Assembly: GCF_964033635.1 (NCBI RefSeq)
Contig: NZ_OZ035533.1
Span: 5,737,001-5,801,000, forward strand
Direction of reading: 5' to 3'
DNA length: 64,000 bases
From: Chitinophaga sp. MM2321
GTDB lineage: Bacteria > Bacteroidota > Bacteroidia > Chitinophagales > Chitinophagaceae
A program made the translations under genes and the position numbers. Position 1 is the first letter of the stretch. Each line of letters starts with the position of its first letter. Positions 1,758-59,559 of this stretch are shown piece after piece. The notes under the pieces are model-generated. The model saw only the letters and a program-made list of their open reading frames with translations, searched no databases and had not been told where the DNA came from.

Positions 1758-4520
1758 TTATTCAGGTTCGAAGCCCAGCATAAATGTAAACTTAGCTGCA
1801 TCTTTTAAACCACCACCAGGTTTCAGACGGTCAAATCCTATACCATAATCAAATCCAAGCAATCCAAACATAGGCAGATAGAAGCGCATACCTATACCAG
1901 CAGAGCGACGCAGCCTGAAAGGATTGAAGTCCTGGATGTCACGATAACCGTTCGCTGCTTCCAGAAATGCCAGCCCAAAGATCGTAGAACTTGGATTCAG
2001 ACTAAATGGATAACGCAGCTCCATCACATACTTGTTAAACACGGTGAAACCTTCGTAACCAAGCGGTTGGCCATTCTCCGGATTCGAACTCGGGTTCGAT
2101 GTGTAATAAACCGGGTAACCTCTCTGCGAAATGATATCACGATCATAAATAGCGAAGTTGCTCAAACCATCTCCACCCAACTCAAACCGGCCGAAAGGCG
2201 ATAGCCTGGTGCGATTATTATAACGGCCTATGTAACCAAATTTGGCGGCCACCTTTAACACGAACGTTTTATTGTCCGTTCCCATAGGGCGGCTCAACGG
2301 TACATACCATTCTGCATTAAAGCGGTATTTCTGGTACTCGATAAAATTAAACTGCTTAGACACCGGCTCTTTTGAATAGTCTTTTTCAGGATTCAAAGCG
2401 GAGTACGGCGGCGTATACTGTGCAGACAACAAGAAGTTGGAACCGCTACTCGGGTAGATCTGCTGGTTGATAGAAGACCGCGACAGCGTCAGTTTCAGGT
2501 TCACGTTATTGGAAACCCCATTATCGAAACCTGCAATCCCAAAGTAGTTATAGTTCTTCAGCTTATACTGCTGATAGTTCACAGAATAGATCAGCGTAAA
2601 GAAGTCATCCGGCCATTTCAGCTGCTTACCCAATGAAACGGAAGCACCCAATACTTTAAAGTAACCATCTGTTGTAGCAGCCGGTTGGGTCTGCGTATAA
2701 TAGTTGCTGTAATAATTGCTGTAAGCATAAGGATTCTGGTAGCTGCTGTAGAAGCTCACAGAAAACTGGTTCCTCTTCTTACCACCCAGCCAGGGCTCTG
2801 TGAAAGAGAGGTTATAAGAACGGTATGCTTTACCATTGGAAGACACACGTACAGATAATTTCTGTCCGTCGCCACTTGGCAAAGGATCCCAGGTTTCTTT
2901 TTTGAAGATGTTACGCAGGGAGAAGTTGTTAAATGTTACCCCGAGTGTTCCGGTAAGTCCAATGTAGCCGCCCCATCCTGCAGACAGTTCCAGCTGGTCA
3001 TTTGCTTTTTCTTCTACGGTATAGTCAATATCCACGGTTCCATCAGCCACGTTTGGTACCGGGTTCATCCCGATCTTTTCCGGGTTAAAGAAGCCAAGGT
3101 TGGCAATTTCACGGTTAGAGCGGATCAGATCCTGGCGGCTGAATTTTTCACCGGGGATCGTACGCAACTCACGGCGGATAACGTGTTCATTTGTTTTCTC
3201 GTTACCGGCTATACGTACTTCCTTGATAGTAGCCTGCGGGCCTTCACGCAACCTGATCTCATAATCAATGGTATCGCCACGGATGCCGATTTCCACCGGA
3301 TCGATCTGGAAGAACAGGTAGCCATAGTCCATGTAGTAGCCGCTGATATCGCCGCCTTCCTGAGACATTTGCTTACCCAGTCTTTTTTCCAGCAGCTCCA
3401 GGTTATAGATATCGCCTCTTTTGATACCGAGGATCCGGGTCAGGACGGAGTCGCTGTACCGGGTATTCCCTTTCCAGGTAATATCACCGAAGTAGTATTT
3501 CTTTCCTTCGGAGATCTGCATATCCACGTTGAGGTTCTGAGTGACGGATTTATAGGTAGTATCCCGGGTAATCAGGGCATCCCTGTAACCTTTGGAGTTG
3601 TAGTAGCCTATCACCTTCCCTTTATCTTCAATATATTTTGTTTCGTTGAATTTGGCGGAGCTGAACAATTTAAAGCGGAAATATGGATCCAGTTCTTCCA
3701 GTGCCCTGGTAGGTTGCAGGAAACCGTACGTTTGCCAGAAATCGTTGGGTTGTGCCAGTGAATCCTCATAAACGTGTGAGTAATCAGGATGCAGCGTCAT
3801 GCGGGTACGCTCTTTAGTGCCTTTCATCTTCTTCTTCAGCTTGGAAGAAGCAATATTGTAGTTACCTACAATGTTGATGTTATTGATGCGCACCTTATTT
3901 CCTTTATCCACATTGAATACGAGGCTGACAGAATTTACCTGGCCGCTATCTTTTCGCTCGTCAATTTTCACGGTAGCATTCCCAAACCCTTTATCAGCGT
4001 AGAATTTATGTACCACCCCGATCACGTTCTGTTTTACGCTCTGTGTAGCTACGCTCCCTTTGCGGAGACCGGCTTTGGTAGCGATATCATCGGCTTCAGT
4101 CTTTTTAATTCCTCTGAAAACGAAGCTGTTCATACGTGGCATCTCGGTGAGCCCTATTTCCAGCCAGATCTTATTGTCTTCGATTTTGGTAACATAGATG
4201 GTTACATCAGCAAACAGGCGTTGCGACCACAGGCTCTGAATAGCCTTTGTAAACTGGTCACCCCCGGGATACACCACCTTATCACCAACCGTGAGGCCTG
4301 AGAGCGACAGCAGCAATGACTTATCCAGGTATTGGGTACCAGCAACGGTAATATCGGCTATCTCGTACTGTTGCGGAGTTCCCATGTTAAGCGGGGACAT
4401 AGCCGGCGGATTAGCTGGTTGCAAGGGAGGAACGGTATCTTTCTGCTGAGCGGATACACGTATGCCTGCACTGCAACATAATGCTATAGCCAGAAGGCCC
4501 TTAGGAAATAATTTCTTCAT
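1758..4520 (-). CDS. bamA: Outer membrane protein assembly factor BamA
   Basis: Omp85-family core of the BAM complex that folds beta-barrels into the outer membrane. From the ATG at 4520 the product is 920 residues with a signal peptide (MKKLFPKGLLAIALCCSAGI, cleavage near VSAQ). POTRA repeats occupy about residues 55-480 (for example KEVRIAGNEKTNEHVIRREL), and a C-terminal 16-strand barrel carries the loop-6 type motif RGYPVY and ends FTFMLGFEPE with a terminal aromatic/acidic signature. It is longer than the E. coli protein (about 810), partly through insertions between POTRA domains, as is usual in Bacteroidota. The start overlaps the end of uppS by 20 nt, suggesting translational coupling. 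An upstream in-frame ATG at 4550 would add ten residues before the signal peptide. Confidence 0.95.
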   Translation of the reverse strand: MKKLFPKGLLAIALCCSAGIRVSAQQKDTVPPLQPANPPAMSPLNMGTPQQYEIADITVAGTQYLDKSLLLSLSGLTVGDKVVYPGGDQFTKAIQSLWSQRLFADVTIYVTKIEDNKIWLEIGLTEMPRMNSFVFRGIKKTEADDIATKAGLRKGSVATQSVKQNVIGVVHKFYADKGFGNATVKIDERKDSGQVNSVSLVFNVDKGNKVRINNINIVGNYNIASSKLKKKMKGTKERTRMTLHPDYSHVYEDSLAQPNDFWQTYGFLQPTRALEELDPYFRFKLFSSAKFNETKYIEDKGKVIGYYNSKGYRDALITRDTTYKSVTQNLNVDMQISEGKKYYFGDITWKGNTRYSDSVLTRILGIKRGDIYNLELLEKRLGKQMSQEGGDISGYYMDYGYLFFQIDPVEIGIRGDTIDYEIRLREGPQATIKEVRIAGNEKTNEHVIRRELRTIPGEKFSRQDLIRSNREIANLGFFNPEKIGMNPVPNVADGTVDIDYTVEEKANDQLELSAGWGGYIGLTGTLGVTFNNFSLRNIFKKETWDPLPSGDGQKLSVRVSSNGKAYRSYNLSFTEPWLGGKKRNQFSVSFYSSYQNPYAYSNYYSNYYTQTQPAATTDGYFKVLGASVSLGKQLKWPDDFFTLIYSVNYQQYKLKNYNYFGIAGFDNGVSNNVNLKLTLSRSSINQQIYPSSGSNFLLSAQYTPPYSALNPEKDYSKEPVSKQFNFIEYQKYRFNAEWYVPLSRPMGTDNKTFVLKVAAKFGYIGRYNNRTRLSPFGRFELGGDGLSNFAIYDRDIISQRGYPVYYTSNPSSNPENGQPLGYEGFTVFNKYVMELRYPFSLNPSSTIFGLAFLEAANGYRDIQDFNPFRLRRSAGIGMRFYLPMFGLLGFDYGIGFDRLKPGGGLKDAAKFTFMLGFEPE

Positions 4521-5262
4521 TCTGCTGAATTTGTTCGCTTGTTTTGCCAAAGCGCCGTTCTCTGGTTTGGTAATTTAAGATGGCTTGGTAAAGATGTTCA
4601 TTGCGGAAATCCGGCCAGCGGGTATCTGTAAAATACAGTTCCGCATAGGCCAGTTGATATAACAGAAAATTACTGATCCGACATTCTCCACTGGTACGGA
4701 TCATTAGTTCAGGATCCGGCAAACCGGCAGTACAGAGATATTTTTCCCATACTTCGGGTGTTACAGCTGCCGGGTCCAGGGCTCCCTTTTTTACGTCCGC
4801 TGCAATTTTTTTGGCTGCATTCACAATTTCCCACCTGGCACTATAGCTAAGGGCCATTATAAGGTTCAACCCCGTGTTATGGCTGGTAAGTGCAATGGCC
4901 TCCTCCATTTCCTGCTGGCATTGGGGGGGCAACATGTCCATATCGCCTATTACACGTAGCCTGATATTATTTTTGGATAACGTGTTTACCTCCTTACGGA
5001 TCGTATTTACAAGTAATTCCATGATGCCGTTCACTTCATAAACAGGGCGGTCCCAGTTTTCCGTAGAAAACGCGTATAGGGTAAGATAGCCTATTCCAAG
5101 TTCAGCACAGGTTTCTACGATGGTGCGCACACTCTCCACTCCCTCGTGATGCCCATACAACCTGTCCTGTCCCCGCTCCTTTGCCCAACGGCCATTACCG
5201 TCCATAATAATGGCGATGTGGCGCGGTAACCGTTGTAAGTCCAATTTATCCTTCAAGCTCAT
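4501..5262 (-). CDS. uppS: Isoprenyl transferase (undecaprenyl diphosphate synthase)
   Basis: Cis-prenyltransferase that makes the C55 lipid carrier for peptidoglycan and glycan export. Family motifs are clear: HIAIIMDGNGRWA with the catalytic Asp and the RWA motif, GHHEGVESVR, YLTLYAFSTENW, and DPELMIRTSGECRISNFLLY followed by the AYAELYFTDTRWPDF segment. I place the start at 5262 (MSLKDKLDLQRLPRHIA); the frame is open further upstream but those residues are unlike the family and overlap the leader. The gene heads a leftward operon with bamA and two skp genes and overlaps bamA by 20 nt. A TTTG/TATTTTTG promoter lies about 80-105 nt upstream. Confidence 0.96.
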   Translation of the reverse strand: MSLKDKLDLQRLPRHIAIIMDGNGRWAKERGQDRLYGHHEGVESVRTIVETCAELGIGYLTLYAFSTENWDRPVYEVNGIMELLVNTIRKEVNTLSKNNIRLRVIGDMDMLPPQCQQEMEEAIALTSHNTGLNLIMALSYSARWEIVNAAKKIAADVKKGALDPAAVTPEVWEKYLCTAGLPDPELMIRTSGECRISNFLLYQLAYAELYFTDTRWPDFRNEHLYQAILNYQTRERRFGKTSEQIQQNEEIIS

Positions 5263-9908: not shown

Positions 9909-10685
9909 TTAAGCGATTGCTTTTTCCTGCAGTTTCTCTAAAAAGGCGTGTAGAATCTTGTTGAATTCTTCCGGGACTTCCATCATAGGTGCGTGACCGC
10001 ATTTATCAATAAACTGCAGTTCAGAATTAGGTATAAGCTTTTGAAATTCTTCTCCAACCATAGGAGGAGTAACGGTATCATTATTACCCCAGATGAGTAA
10101 AGTAGGCTGTTTGATATCTTTTAGTTCGTCTCCCAGGTTGTGCCGGATAGCTGATTTTGCCAGGGTAATGATTTTGATCACCTTCAGGCGGTTATTTACG
10201 ATCTCGAACATTTCATCCACCAGTTCTTTGGTAGCTATTTTCGGATCATAAAAGGTGAGTTCCGCTTTCTTGCGGATATATTCATAGTCGCCCCGCTTAG
10301 GATAAGTTTCACCCATTCCGTTTTCAAACAAGCCGGAACTGCCTGTAAGTGTCAGGGATTTAATAGGCGCTTCAGGATGCTTAAGCAGGTATACCAAAGC
10401 CACATGACCACCCAGTGAGTTGCCCAGCAGGTGCACGTTTTTGTAGCCTCTCGCTTCCATAAATTTATGCACATACTTTGCCAGCCCGCCTACTGATGTT
10501 TCCAGGATGTTTAAATCATACAGGGGTAACATCGGAATCACAACCTTGTTATACTGCCGGAAATACTCAACCATGTGCGCGAAATTACTCAAAGCACCAA
10601 AAAGCCCATGCAATAATACCAGTGGTTCTCCTTCTCCTTCTTCTATGAAATTAAACTTACCCTGTGTTTTGATTTCGTAATCCAT
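9909..10685 (-). CDS. Alpha/beta hydrolase
   Basis: Cytosolic alpha/beta-hydrolase fold protein of 258 residues. The oxyanion motif is VLLHGLFGALSNF, the nucleophile elbow is GNSLGGH (Ser), the acid lies in LLIWGNNDTVTPP, and the catalytic His in DKCGHAPMMEVPEEF. I use the ATG at 10685 (MDYEIKTQ); a TTG two codons upstream is also in frame. It lies 65 nt after cvpA and probably belongs to the gldC-yqeY-cvpA transcript. The substrate is unknown; the closest families are general esterases and C-C bond hydrolases. Confidence 0.88.
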   Translation of the reverse strand: MDYEIKTQGKFNFIEEGEGEPLVLLHGLFGALSNFAHMVEYFRQYNKVVIPMLPLYDLNILETSVGGLAKYVHKFMEARGYKNVHLLGNSLGGHVALVYLLKHPEAPIKSLTLTGSSGLFENGMGETYPKRGDYEYIRKKAELTFYDPKIATKELVDEMFEIVNNRLKVIKIITLAKSAIRHNLGDELKDIKQPTLLIWGNNDTVTPPMVGEEFQKLIPNSELQFIDKCGHAPMMEVPEEFNKILHAFLEKLQEKAIA

Positions 10686-48394: not shown

Positions 48395-48862
48395 TTACTC
48401 CACCACATTGATAGTGCGGTAAAAGCTTTCTTCGAGAGAGATCAGGGTTTCAGTTCTTTCAATACCTTTGATTTTCTGTAGTTCATCGTGGAGGATACGG
48501 CGTAGCTGGGTAATATCTTTACAAATAATCTCTGCAAACATACTATAACTGCCGGTGGTATAATTTAACCGTACCATTTCGGGGATTTTTCGCAATTCTT
48601 TGGCAACAGTATCATACATGGAGCTTTTTTCCAGATAAATACCGATAAAGGCAATTACATCATAACCGATCATTTTCAGATCTACATGTAATTTTGTACC
48701 TTTAACTATACCCAGTTCTTGCAATTTCTTCATTCTTACGTGAATGGTTCCCCCGGATACGAACAATTTCTTCCCTAAATCGGCGTAAGAAATCTCAGCA
48801 TTGTTCATCATTTCGCTGATTATCTGTAAATCGAGTTTGTCAATATTCAAATTGTGGCTCAT
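48395..48862 (-). CDS. Lrp/AsnC family transcriptional regulator
   Basis: Winged helix regulator of 155 residues with a C-terminal RAM/ACT-type ligand domain. The N-terminus reads LDKLDLQIISEMMNNAEISY, then ADLGKKLFVSGGTIHVRMKK (recognition helix) and LQELGIVKGTKLHVDLKMIG. The effector domain has FIGIYLEKSSMYDTVAKELR, VRLNYTTGSYSMFAEIICKD and GIERTETLISLEES. It precedes the tryptophan 2,3-dioxygenase gene, and a tryptophan- or other amino acid-responsive control is plausible but not shown. It diverges from the promoter of the tRNA-like RNA. Confidence 0.93.
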   Translation of the reverse strand: MSHNLNIDKLDLQIISEMMNNAEISYADLGKKLFVSGGTIHVRMKKLQELGIVKGTKLHVDLKMIGYDVIAFIGIYLEKSSMYDTVAKELRKIPEMVRLNYTTGSYSMFAEIICKDITQLRRILHDELQKIKGIERTETLISLEESFYRTINVVE

Positions 48863-48945
48863 TTTTACAATTTGTTTTTGAATGTTTTAAAGTTATATGC
48901 AAATATTTAAAAAATATCGAAAATTCAAAAATTTTTCTTAAAAAA

Positions 48946-48977
48946 TTTGCAAGAAATCCCCCTTCTGTTTAGATTTG
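48946..48977 (+). promoter_or_regulatory. Complete -33/-7 promoter of the tRNA-like RNA
   Basis: TTTG (48946-48949), a 20-nt spacer and TAGATTTG (48970-48977) give one of the two best matches in the window to the Bacteroidota promoter (TTTG-N19-21-TAnnTTTG). Transcription should start near 48984, at the foot of a 9-bp hairpin TATCATTAC/GTAATGATA (48983-49028). There is no coding sequence before trmB at 49284. Confidence 0.8.
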
Positions 48978-49037
48978 CATCATATCATTACAGAAACAGC
49001 AAAAGAAAAGCAATCGCTGGTAATGATAATATAAAAT

Positions 49038-49183
49038 TGTGGGATGATGAAACTGGCAGACATGCCCCCTTGTCTCGGGGGTGGAGATCACAGGATAAAC
49101 GTAGTATAATTGGGTTGACCACTAATCTTACTTGTGCTATAGCTAACTGCTCCGTGGAGGTTCGACTCCTCCTCCTACAGCCA
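49038..49183 (+). ncRNA. tRNA-like RNA with a giant variable region
   Basis: The ends fold like a tRNA. The acceptor stem is TGTGGGA (49038-49044) with TCCTACA (49173-49179), followed by G and an encoded CCA (49181-49183). The D arm ATG-AAACTGGCAGA-CAT is the form typical of Leu-type tRNAs. An anticodon arm CCCCC-TTGTCTC-GGGGG (49065-49081) and a T arm GGAGG-TTCGACT-CCTCC (49156-49172) with perfect T-loop residues complete it. Between anticodon and T arms lie 74 nt that fold by TGGAG/CTCCG at the base, CACAGG/CTTGTG above, and a small inner hairpin. The total of 146 nt is about 60 nt longer than any ordinary tRNA. The anticodon position would read GTC but has a pyrimidine at 37. It is probably not a normal decoding tRNA. 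Confidence 0.7.
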
Positions 49184-49189
49184 AATTGG

Positions 49190-49228
49190 TTTAAAGGCTC
49201 ATAAGTCAATGACTTATGGGCTTTTTTA
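49190..49228 (+). terminator. Intrinsic terminator of the tRNA-like RNA
   Basis: AAAGGCTCATAAG and CTTATGGGCTTTT (about 49193-49223) pair over 13 bp including two G-U pairs, with a 7-nt loop and a T tail. It directly follows the CCA end, so the RNA is a free-standing unit. Confidence 0.85.
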
Positions 49229-49270
49229 TTTTATATAGGTCCCCAAAACCTATAATTCTATCTTTCTGGC

Positions 49271-49278
49271 TATTTTTG
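49271..49278 (+). promoter_or_regulatory. -7 element abutting the trmB start codon
   Basis: TATTTTTG, then CCGAA, then the trmB ATG at 49284. As at 26703 and 13880 this predicts a transcript that begins at or almost at the start codon. No TTTG at -33. Confidence 0.55.
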
Positions 49279-49283
49279 CCGAA

Positions 49284-49991
49284 ATGGGACAAAAAAAATT
49301 AGAACGGTTTGCTGAAATCGAAACTTTCCCCAACGTATTAATATATCCGGAAGGAATGCAGGGGAAATGGCATGAATTCTTTAAAAACAACCACCCGGTT
49401 ACACTGGAACTGGCCTGTGGTAAAGGAGATTACACCCTTGGACTGGCCCGCTTATCCAAAGATCAGAACTTTATAGGGGTGGATCTGAAAGGTAACCGCA
49501 TCTGGAGAGGCGCCAAAACTGCGCTGGAAGAATCATTATCCAACGTGGGTTTCCTGCGTACACAAATAGATAAACTGAATAATTATTTTGCGCCGGGAGA
49601 GATCAAAGATATCTGGATCACCTTCCCCGACCCCTTCCTGCGTAACTCAAAATCTAAAAAAAGATTGACGCACCCCAAATTCCTGCAGCTTTTTCAACCA
49701 CTGCTGGCACCCGGGGCTACCATTAACCTGAAAACAGATTCACCGCAGTTATATACTTTTACACAGGAAGTGATCAGCGCCGCCGGTTGTACGCTCATAG
49801 AAGATATTCCTGACGTATATGCGTTACCGGAAGTGCCGCCACTGCTCAAAATACAGACCTATTATGAAGGAATGCACCTGGCTGATGGCAGAACAATCCG
49901 CTTCCTGAAATTCCAGCTGCCCGCCACCCCGTTGGATTGGCGCAGTATAAAACTCCCTTCTGATGAAGCAACCGCTGGTGGAGAAGATTGA
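49284..49991 (+). CDS. trmB: tRNA (guanine-N7-)-methyltransferase
   Basis: SAM-dependent enzyme that makes m7G46 in the variable loop of tRNAs; 235 residues. Motifs: TLELACGKGDYTLGLARL (SAM-binding, ELACGKG), FIGVDLKGNRIWRGAKTALE, IKDIWITFPDPFLRNSKSKK (the PDPW-type catalytic Asp segment), RLTHPKFLQLFQPLLAPGAT and INLKTDSPQLY. Length is usual. It is preceded by a tRNA-like RNA whose variable region is huge, a suggestive neighbour for an enzyme acting on variable loops, though this may be chance. It overlaps a DUF5522-type gene by 29 nt at its 3' end. Confidence 0.95.
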   Translation: MGQKKLERFAEIETFPNVLIYPEGMQGKWHEFFKNNHPVTLELACGKGDYTLGLARLSKDQNFIGVDLKGNRIWRGAKTALEESLSNVGFLRTQIDKLNNYFAPGEIKDIWITFPDPFLRNSKSKKRLTHPKFLQLFQPLLAPGATINLKTDSPQLYTFTQEVISAAGCTLIEDIPDVYALPEVPPLLKIQTYYEGMHLADGRTIRFLKFQLPATPLDWRSIKLPSDEATAGGED

Positions 49992-58119: not shown

Positions 58120-59559
58120 ATGAGCCAAAGAGTGAAAGTCAAGCAAATCTTGTCGGACGACAAGGCGCATTATGAAGTAACGGTAAAAGGTTGGGTGCGG
58201 TCATTCCGCAACAACCAGTTTATAACGTTGAACGATGGCTCTACCAATAATAATTTACAAGTAGTTATTGATACTGAAAATACGGATGCAGCCCTGCTGA
58301 AACGCATTACCACAGGCGCTTCCATCTGCGCAAAAGGAGAGATCATTCCCTCACTGGGTAAAGGCCAGAAAGTAGAGCTGAAAGCTACTACCCTGGAAAT
58401 ACTGGGCGACTGTGATCCTGAAAAATATCCTTTGCAGCTGAAAAACAGGCCCAGCCTGGAATACCTGCGTGAAATCGCTCATCTGCGTTTCCGTACCAAT
58501 ACTTTTGGCGCTATCTTCCGGGTACGCCATGCGTTAGCATTTGCCGTGCACAAGTTCTTTAACGAGCGCGGCTTTGTATACCTGCATACGCCTATCATCA
58601 CTGCATCTGACGCTGAAGGCGCTGGTGAAATGTTCCGTGTAACCACCCTGGACATGAACAAACCACCCCGCACAGAAGCCGGCGATATTGATTACAAAGA
58701 AGACTTCTTTGGCAAGTCAACCAACCTCACCGTATCCGGCCAGCTGGAAGGCGAACTGGGTGCTATGGCCTTTGGTGATATCTATACTTTCGGACCCACT
58801 TTCCGCGCTGAAAATTCCAACACCGCCCGCCACCTCGCTGAGTTCTGGATGGTAGAGCCGGAAATGGCCTTCTACGAACTGGAAGATAATATGGACCTGG
58901 CGGAAGCCTTCATCAAATCCATCATCGGATATGTATTGGAGCATAACCGCGATGACCTCGACTTCCTGGCTTCCCGCCTTGTGGAAGAGGATAAACAAAA
59001 ACCACAACAGGAACGCAGTGAAATGGGGCTGCTGGAAAAGCTGGAGTTTGTATTACACAACGAATTTGTACGTATTACCTACACAGAAGCTATTGACATC
59101 CTGCAAAACAGCAAACATAACAGGAACAAGAAGTTCCAGTACCTCATTGAAGGCTGGGGCGCCGACCTGCAAAGCGAACACGAGCGTTATCTCGTAGAAA
59201 AGCACTTTAAGAAACCGGTGATCCTCACTGATTATCCTAAAGAAATCAAGTCTTTCTACATGAAGCTGAATGAGGATAACAAAACCGTCAGGGCTATGGA
59301 TATCCTGTTTCCCGGCATCGGTGAAATGGTAGGCGGATCACAACGTGAAGAAGACTACGACAAACTGGTTAAACGCATGGAAGAAATGCACATACCCGTA
59401 GAAGAACTAAGCTGGTACCTGGATACACGCCGTTTTGGTACTGCTCCGCACGCCGGCTTTGGTCTTGGTTTCGAACGCATGATGCTCTTTATAACCGGTA
59501 TGGGCAATATCCGCGACGTTATACCTTTCCCAAGAACACCAAAGAACGCCGAACACTAG
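58120..59559 (+). CDS. asnS: Asparaginyl-tRNA synthetase
   Basis: Class IIb aminoacyl-tRNA synthetase charging tRNA-Asn, 479 residues. The N-terminal OB fold binds the anticodon ([20 protein letters not shown]). Class II motifs: motif 1 near [20 protein letters not shown], with [20 protein letters not shown], motif 2 [20 protein letters not shown], and motif 3 [16 protein letters not shown] at the C-terminus. A Bacteroidota-type insert of about 40 residues occurs around [13 protein letters not shown]. Its TAG stop begins a TAGACCAGGATTA repeat. A TATTTTTG element is 21 nt upstream. Confidence 0.96.

Follow-up and report, generated by a model that had tools for sequence, protein, structure and literature searches.

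The window analyzed here is a stretch of 64,000 nucleotides from Chitinophaga sp. MM2321 (contig NZ_OZ035533.1, positions 5,737,001 to 5,801,000, forward strand). Within it, the gene for a tRNA-like RNA lies between the divergent gene of an AsnC-type regulator and trmB. The features, in window coordinates, are as follows:

48395..48862, minus strand: AsnC-type regulator of 155 aa, transcribed divergently from the RNA
48946..48977, plus strand: promoter-like boxes, -33 box TTTG at 48946-48949 and -7 box TAGATTTG at 48970-48977
49038..49183, plus strand: tRNA-like RNA, 146 nt counting CCA
49038..49044, plus strand: acceptor 5' strand, U1 pairing with A72 (49179) and G2 with C71 (49178)
49047..49063, plus strand: D arm, tRNA-Leu-like, 3-bp stem ATG/CAT
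49065..49081, plus strand: anticodon arm, 5-bp stem
49070-49076, plus strand: anticodon loop TTGTCTC, read as U32 U33 G34 U35 C36 U37 C38
49082-49155, plus strand: variable region, 74 nt
49083..49153, plus strand: variable arm, based on covariation
49083-49086/49150-49153, plus strand: lower stem of the variable arm, 4 bp, from covariation
49087-49090, plus strand: bulge of the variable arm
49091-49093/49147-49149, plus strand: second stem of the variable arm, 3 bp, from covariation
49094-49099 and 49142-49146, plus strand: internal loop of the variable arm, GAUAAA with GCUAA
49101-49109/49132-49140, plus strand: outer helix of the variable arm
49112-49122, plus strand: apical element of the variable arm, GGGUUGACCAC
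49156..49172, plus strand: T arm, 5-bp stem, loop TTCGACT
49173..49181, plus strand: acceptor 3' strand, pairing part 49173-49179, G73 at 49180, C74 at 49181
about 49196..49227, plus strand: intrinsic terminator hairpin and T run
49284..49991, plus strand: trmB, downstream neighbor, outside the widely conserved unit
58135..59553, plus strand: asnS, asparaginyl-tRNA synthetase (AsnRS), which uses free asparagine

Direct reading of the sequence bears out the complete cloverleaf, 74-nt variable region, promoter-like boxes and terminator described in a first-pass annotation of this DNA, and the Leu-like D arm (compared with the tRNA genes of the same genome) and TTCGACT T-loop are as claimed there. 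A putative 85-aa frame with a TTG start runs across the RNA gene. The apical element and its homologues are nearly self-complementary, and their GAC triplet could meet the GUC loop.

The RNA was missed by the standard tools that were tried. ARAGORN, a tRNA finder of the kind proposed in the first-pass annotation as a check, returned 0 tRNAs and 0 tmRNAs over the whole window and recognized the RNA at 0 of 11 carrier loci, and the RNA is not among the 57 RF00005 matches of the MM2321 genome. A search of 48500-49800 against Rfam gave nothing at the gathering score, the best score, 26.2 bits for RF04178 (whose cut-off is 174.8), coming mostly via the terminator. Nothing reached the gathering score at seven carrier loci either, and membership in a known Rfam family was rejected on these results. 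The single-sequence fold is unremarkable (z -0.92, with 37 of 200 shuffles folding equally well) and leaves the D stem unformed. The reality of the structure was settled by comparison across members. At G000:C1:4997164-4997237 (L051:64-138), ARAGORN reads a tRNA-like gene with the four-base anticodon ttta.

Relatives were searched with blastn and with a covariance model built from 36 members, using an E-value of at most 1e-15 for membership; weaker matches to the model come mainly from normal tRNA-Leu, 81-88 nt long, and such strict filters may miss members. The match of the family covariance model (R1) in the window is 49037-49181. The 36-member alignment (A1) holds 36 of 47 copies, with 11 close duplicates dropped, and alignment A6 holds 51 of 61 loci, with 10 same-genus or repeated loci omitted. 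Genome G046 (locus L044), which matches on the T-arm side only, was kept out of the alignments. The 41 pairs of the 36-member alignment are 96.0% paired, and double changes affect 100 cells where shuffles give 21.0. When 67 model matches (63 distinct) were aligned by fitting to the covariance model, double changes were seen in 30 of the 41 pairs and in 381 cells, against 91.1 when shuffled. The compensatory base changes in relatives on which the first-pass reading had been made to depend were found, and the covariation is strong; the lower variable-arm stem, for instance, swaps among GGGG/CCCC, GAGG/CCTC, GTGG/CCAC and TGGG/CCCA. This is a real structured-RNA family that lies outside Rfam at gathering score.

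The variable region consists of two helices that covary, of 4 bp and 3 bp, an internal loop (GAUAAA/GCUAA) that is conserved and an outer hairpin that varies, with the apical motif GGU(U/C/A)GACCA in 36 of 63 distinct members. Members range from 110 to 197 nt and the variable-arm region is present even in the shortest (110 nt), with the reservation that the E-value cut excludes normal-size tRNAs. An interrupted tRNA with a removable insert, one of the options raised in the first pass, was rejected as unsupported, since the region has its own conserved, covarying helices and motifs and is retained in the shortest members. With 7 bp in the acceptor and 5 bp in the T arm, the stems are 7/5; pairing of -1 with 73 would give 8/5. 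By eye, phage copies at L270:645-805, L274:670-840, L286:7142-7312 and L266:2952-3111 have a D loop enlarged by sequence that resembles a hairpin.

A search of relatives with a covariance model had been suggested within the Chitinophagaceae, and it revealed a family reaching well past them into the order and class. By blastn, the RNA occurs in 41 of 59 relatives, including 36 of 36 same-genus genomes (MM2321 counted), with two copies in five of these. With the covariance model, it was found in 193 of the 298 genomes searched in the order (our own count of the table) and in 54 of 296 genomes of a class sample, spread over 19 families. A phylum sample (n = 296) added, outside the class, two genomes of one family with three tandem copies each. 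Named carriers among the matches listed, which number at least 120 stretches for the pattern scan, include Chitinophaga, Niabella, Dyadobacter, Cyclobacterium, Algoriphagus, Flammeovirga and Emticicia. Arrays with three to five tandem copies were noted at L229 (Flammeovirga pacifica, 3687-4631), L140, L102, L304 and L305.

Viral contigs also carry the RNA. Thirty-one match the search pattern, all scoring at least 88 bits, although several are copies of one another. PHROG matches were obtained in eight of nine viral contigs tested; they include a terminase on L273, a portal protein on L288 and proteins of DNA replication. Ordinary tRNA genes are present at 10 of the 31 viral loci, with a tmRNA at six of these ten (the contigs with RNA, tRNA genes and tmRNA are L270, L274, L279, L286, L289 and L291). 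In the 636-kb phage LR756504.1, the RNA sits within a tRNA array (L319:6001-6145). A blastn search of the phage collection with the window RNA gave no match; of three phage-derived queries, two had no match and one found LR756504.1. Two queries gave no match in plasmids. A different long (135-nt) tRNA-like match, with the anticodon loop TATTTGT, lies on viral contig L271 at 9979-10113.

All 63 distinct members have U1:A72, G2:C71, G73, C74, G34, U35, C36 and C38. U37 and U3:A70 are each found in 62 of them and U33 in 50, and acceptor pairs 4-7 vary. The covariance model rewards the GUCUC loop, and the search patterns demand it. In a wider, overlapping set of 215, in which loop counts are biased by the search pattern, U1:A72 occurs in 210. 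The five departures comprise three truncated copies, one other tRNA-like match and one full-length copy with A1 instead of U1 (L157:190-315). The combination of U33 and purine 37 that marks decoding tRNAs is not kept. The pyrimidine 37 that the first-pass annotation had pointed out holds for the family, while the U33 it reported is not constant; with a pyrimidine at position 37 in 62/63 members, the RNA should not decode.

The 3' end is of tRNA type, as the G73-C74 of every member matches the N73-C74 encoded by 17 of 17 tRNA genes examined in the MM2321 genome, two of which encode CCA. The encoded CCA reported at first is present in the window and is not kept in the family, where G73-C74 alone is conserved. 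We therefore regard it as incidental.

According to the accessible text of PMC9976931, the aspartate identity set comprises G73, G34, U35, C36, C38 and the pairs 1:72 and 2:71, and aspartyl-tRNA synthetase (AspRS) also uses G1-C72. That text and the accessible part of PMC4206432 state that U1-A72 confers amidation of Asp-tRNA and that G1-C72 and U20a prevent it, and the latter adds that bacterial GatCAB recognizes U1-A72. All members have the AspRS features G34, U35, C36, C38, G73 and G2:C71 and none has G1:C72, its place being taken by U1:A72. The missing G1:C72 may be just what amidation demands, at some cost to aspartate identity. The commonest D loops (...GGCAGA or ...GGCAGC) put an A at position 20a, as assigned in a loop numbering of our own. 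Among 40 tabulated tRNA entries of the MM2321 genome, of which LysTTT is misparsed at positions 33-38, U1:A72 occurs in tRNA-Asn and tRNA-Gln only, GUC with C38 and G73 in tRNA-Asp only, and the aspartate set together with U1:A72 in none. Since both are invariant in the family, the RNA looks like an aspartate acceptor that GatCAB may amidate, and pyrimidine 37 and the huge arm should bar it from the ribosome. The "tRNA-derived regulatory or substrate RNA" of the first pass therefore pointed in the right direction with its second term; regulation remains a rival.

The AsnC-type regulator is divergently upstream of the RNA at 80 of 101 oriented loci, distant families included and in some cases with a tandem copy between (76 of 96 once five loci fetched twice are removed). 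Among 106 named loci, 11 of 117 having been set aside for short upstream sequence, asnC lies within 900 nt upstream at 70; of the 36 others, L195, at least, has asnC further away. It is upstream of both RNA arrays in the carrier family outside the class and was not found in the available stretches of the 31 viral contigs. The best solved relative of the regulator is E. coli AsnC (2cg4, 116.7 bits), and its best model is the NCBIfam AsnC equivalog, at 156.9 bits, which is short of the cut-off of 227. In E. coli, AsnC is an asparagine-responsive regulator of asnA; in relatives, none of five asnA loci examined had AsnC next to it. A functional link with trmB, considered in the first pass, was rejected, as the trmB cluster is a local neighbor (50 of 101 loci) compared with the AsnC-type regulator. 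Among the neighbor clusters annotated, other genes, namely an ogt-like gene, a tryptophan-dioxygenase-like gene, a permease and a hydrolase-like gene, recur in subsets only.

The -7 box, TAnnTTTG, occurs in 70 of 80 asnC-RNA intergenic regions, against 14.75% of single-base shuffles, and the full -33/-7 arrangement in 63 of the 80; the RNA is presumably transcribed from it. GTTCTT, which we take to resemble a boxA-like antitermination element, occurs within 80 nt upstream of the RNA at 23 of 101 loci, where single-base shuffles give 1.7.

The presence of GatCAB was judged from GatB alone. In the class sample (n = 296), GatB was found in 228 genomes and glutaminyl-tRNA synthetase (GlnRS) over cut-off in 115. 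All 54 RNA-positive genomes have GatB. Among GlnRS-positive genomes, GatB accompanies the RNA in 35 of 35, whereas the 80 without the RNA have a strong GatB match in eight, a weak one in eight and none in 64 (Fisher 3.7e-22, kinship ignored). Where GlnRS is absent, GatB occurs in 19 of 19 genomes with the RNA and 158 of 162 without it, as expected if GatB serves tRNA-Gln, so that it is uninformative in the 19 RNA-positive genomes lacking GlnRS over cut-off. Within the three families that hold both states (f1, f23 and f59), GatB is present in 20/20 genomes with the RNA versus 0/6 without (p 4.3e-6). AsnRS over cut-off was found in 53 of the 54 RNA-positive genomes. With both AsnRS and GlnRS present, GatCAB has no evident tRNA-charging duty in GlnRS-positive carriers, and it persists where the RNA occurs.

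The eight exceptions, GlnRS-positive with strong GatB and no RNA, belong to one family and make up all of its sampled GlnRS-positive genomes. In the two that were checked, GatB is fused to a bacterial-type AspRS in a single protein of 1106-1110 aa with OB, catalytic and GAD domains (L302:194-3526, minus strand; L303:304-3624, plus strand), and beside the fusion there was no RNA-model match at E 1e-6 and nothing by eye. Genomes G147 and G112, outside the class sample and scored for GatB and RNA only, have GatB and lack the RNA.

AsnA was not found in the MM2321 genome; of 55 genomes with the RNA that were tested, 52 lack it. AsnB-like proteins over the TIGR01536 cut-off are present in 21 of 24 genomes surveyed, MM2321 included, and the RNA therefore need not be the only source of asparagine. 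The single such protein of MM2321 is encoded among sugar-transferase, glycosyltransferase and methyltransferase genes. In a model scan covering a 560-aa stretch of its 632 aa, it scored 458.1 bits against TIGR01536 (above the cut-off of 267.1), 467.7 against an EPS amidotransferase model (below the cut-off of 816.9) and 253.4 against asparagine synthase B (below the cut-off of 499); for an AsnB-like protein of G520, the three models ranked in the same order. This gene setting and these scores make a housekeeping asparagine synthetase doubtful in MM2321.

We think it probable that the RNA does not decode and serves tRNA-dependent asparagine synthesis as a dedicated cofactor. In this scheme, after processing of the tRNA type, AspRS would attach aspartate to it and GatCAB, acting through the U1:A72 pair, would amidate Asp-RNA to Asn-RNA; asparagine would then be released for use by AsnRS. 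The RNA would be kept off the ribosome, where an asparagine-charged GUC tRNA would put asparagine at aspartate codons, by pyrimidine 37 and by its oversized variable arm, and the divergent AsnC would tune transcription of the RNA to asparagine. What ties the identity bases to the enzymes in this scheme is established tRNA rules together with co-occurrence. Counted against a cofactor role are the lack of G1-C72, U33 in 50/63 members, the failure to find asnC within 900 nt at 36/106 loci or in the viral stretches, the A1 copy, and the favoring of the GUCUC loop by the model and search patterns. The pair U3:A70 (62/63) is almost as fixed as the explained positions and lies outside this scheme, and the long arm might clash with AspRS.

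The same enzymes would act if the charged RNA were instead a sensor or riboregulator of aspartate, asparagine or amide-nitrogen status, with regulation rather than bulk asparagine as the output, by titrating AspRS or GatCAB or by pairing through the apical GGU(U/C/A)GACCA loop. The asnC adjacency, the apical motif of 36/63 members and the promoter and terminator agree with this, but short members (e.g. L140, L142, L043 and the second copy of L046) keep the identity bases without the motif, and five tandem copies in one genome suit a mass-action role; we consider it unlikely. Less likely still is donation of asparagine from Asn-RNA to a non-ribosomal acceptor such as a lipid, the cell wall or a peptide. 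Staphylococci have a non-proteinogenic tRNA-Gly that provides a model for this, and the non-decoding loop and same charging logic fit, but no candidate transferase was recognized among the recurrent neighbors annotated; the acceptor enzyme could lie elsewhere. We give very little weight to an allo-tRNA-like, class II tRNA charged with serine. SerRS reads the long arm and G73, G2:C71 is shared with the Ser tRNAs of MM2321 and allo-tRNAs with the anticodon GUC exist (PMC7609411, accessible part), but SerRS does not read the anticodon, leaving GUC and C38 in 63/63 members unexplained along with the link to GatB, and the stems are 7/5 rather than 8/4 or 9/3, with a Leu-like D arm. The phage copies, the tRNA genes at 10/31 viral loci and U33 in 50/63 would suit a tRNA-Asp of unusual form that still decodes, or a decoy that phages carry against toxins cleaving tRNA. 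This is highly improbable given pyrimidine 37 in 62/63 and three ordinary tRNA-Asp genes in MM2321, and it predicts neither U1:A72 nor GatB.

If the RNA is indeed a cofactor for asparagine synthesis, a tRNA has been turned into a pure biosynthetic cofactor. This would answer the published puzzle of why GatCAB persists in bacteria that possess AsnRS as well as GlnRS, and explain why it is kept in many such Bacteroidota. The accessible text of PMC4206432 counts GatCAB alongside both enzymes in 67 or 68 of 547 genera, lists Bacteroidetes among those lacking Asn synthetase and regards GatCAB retention in some as perhaps vestigial. We lean slightly toward the wider statement that a chimeric, non-decoding tRNA of Asp/Asn identity forms, with AspRS and GatCAB, an RNA-dependent asparagine synthetase under AsnC in Bacteroidota, of which phages carry their own copy. 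In any event, an RNA family is added in many environmental Bacteroidota and phages. No description of such an RNA was found in the open literature, as covered by titles and abstract openings (subscription papers and preprints were outside the scope).

Among tRNA mimics are tmRNA and the bacterial Y RNAs. A tmRNA was rejected, since here the anticodon arm is present and covaries, no tag frame was found and ARAGORN finds no tmRNA in the window; a Y RNA (YrlA) was rejected in view of the lack of a Ro60 (TROVE) match in the MM2321 genome. Class II tRNAs (Leu/Ser) and tRNA-Sec share the cloverleaf, Leu-like D arm and long variable arm, but the family differs in its Asp loop, G73 and pyrimidine 37, and in a variable region (74 nt in the window) with a bulge, internal loop and extra hairpin. 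Allo-tRNAs (8/4, 9/3) and irregular soil tRNAs are likewise non-canonical tRNA-like genes, some with GUC, as far as the accessible part of PMC7609411 describes them; the present family has 7/5 stems, another arm and an association with asnC and GatB. Closest is tRNA-dependent asparagine biosynthesis by a non-discriminating AspRS and GatCAB on tRNA-Asn, in which AspRS also precedes GatCAB, U1:A72 is the signal and asparagine is made on RNA (PMC4206432 and PMC9976931, accessible text). Here, in contrast, the carrier would be a separate, non-decoding RNA with the Asp anticodon, so that a discriminating AspRS of the ordinary kind could be used, and the product would not be Asn-tRNA-Asn.
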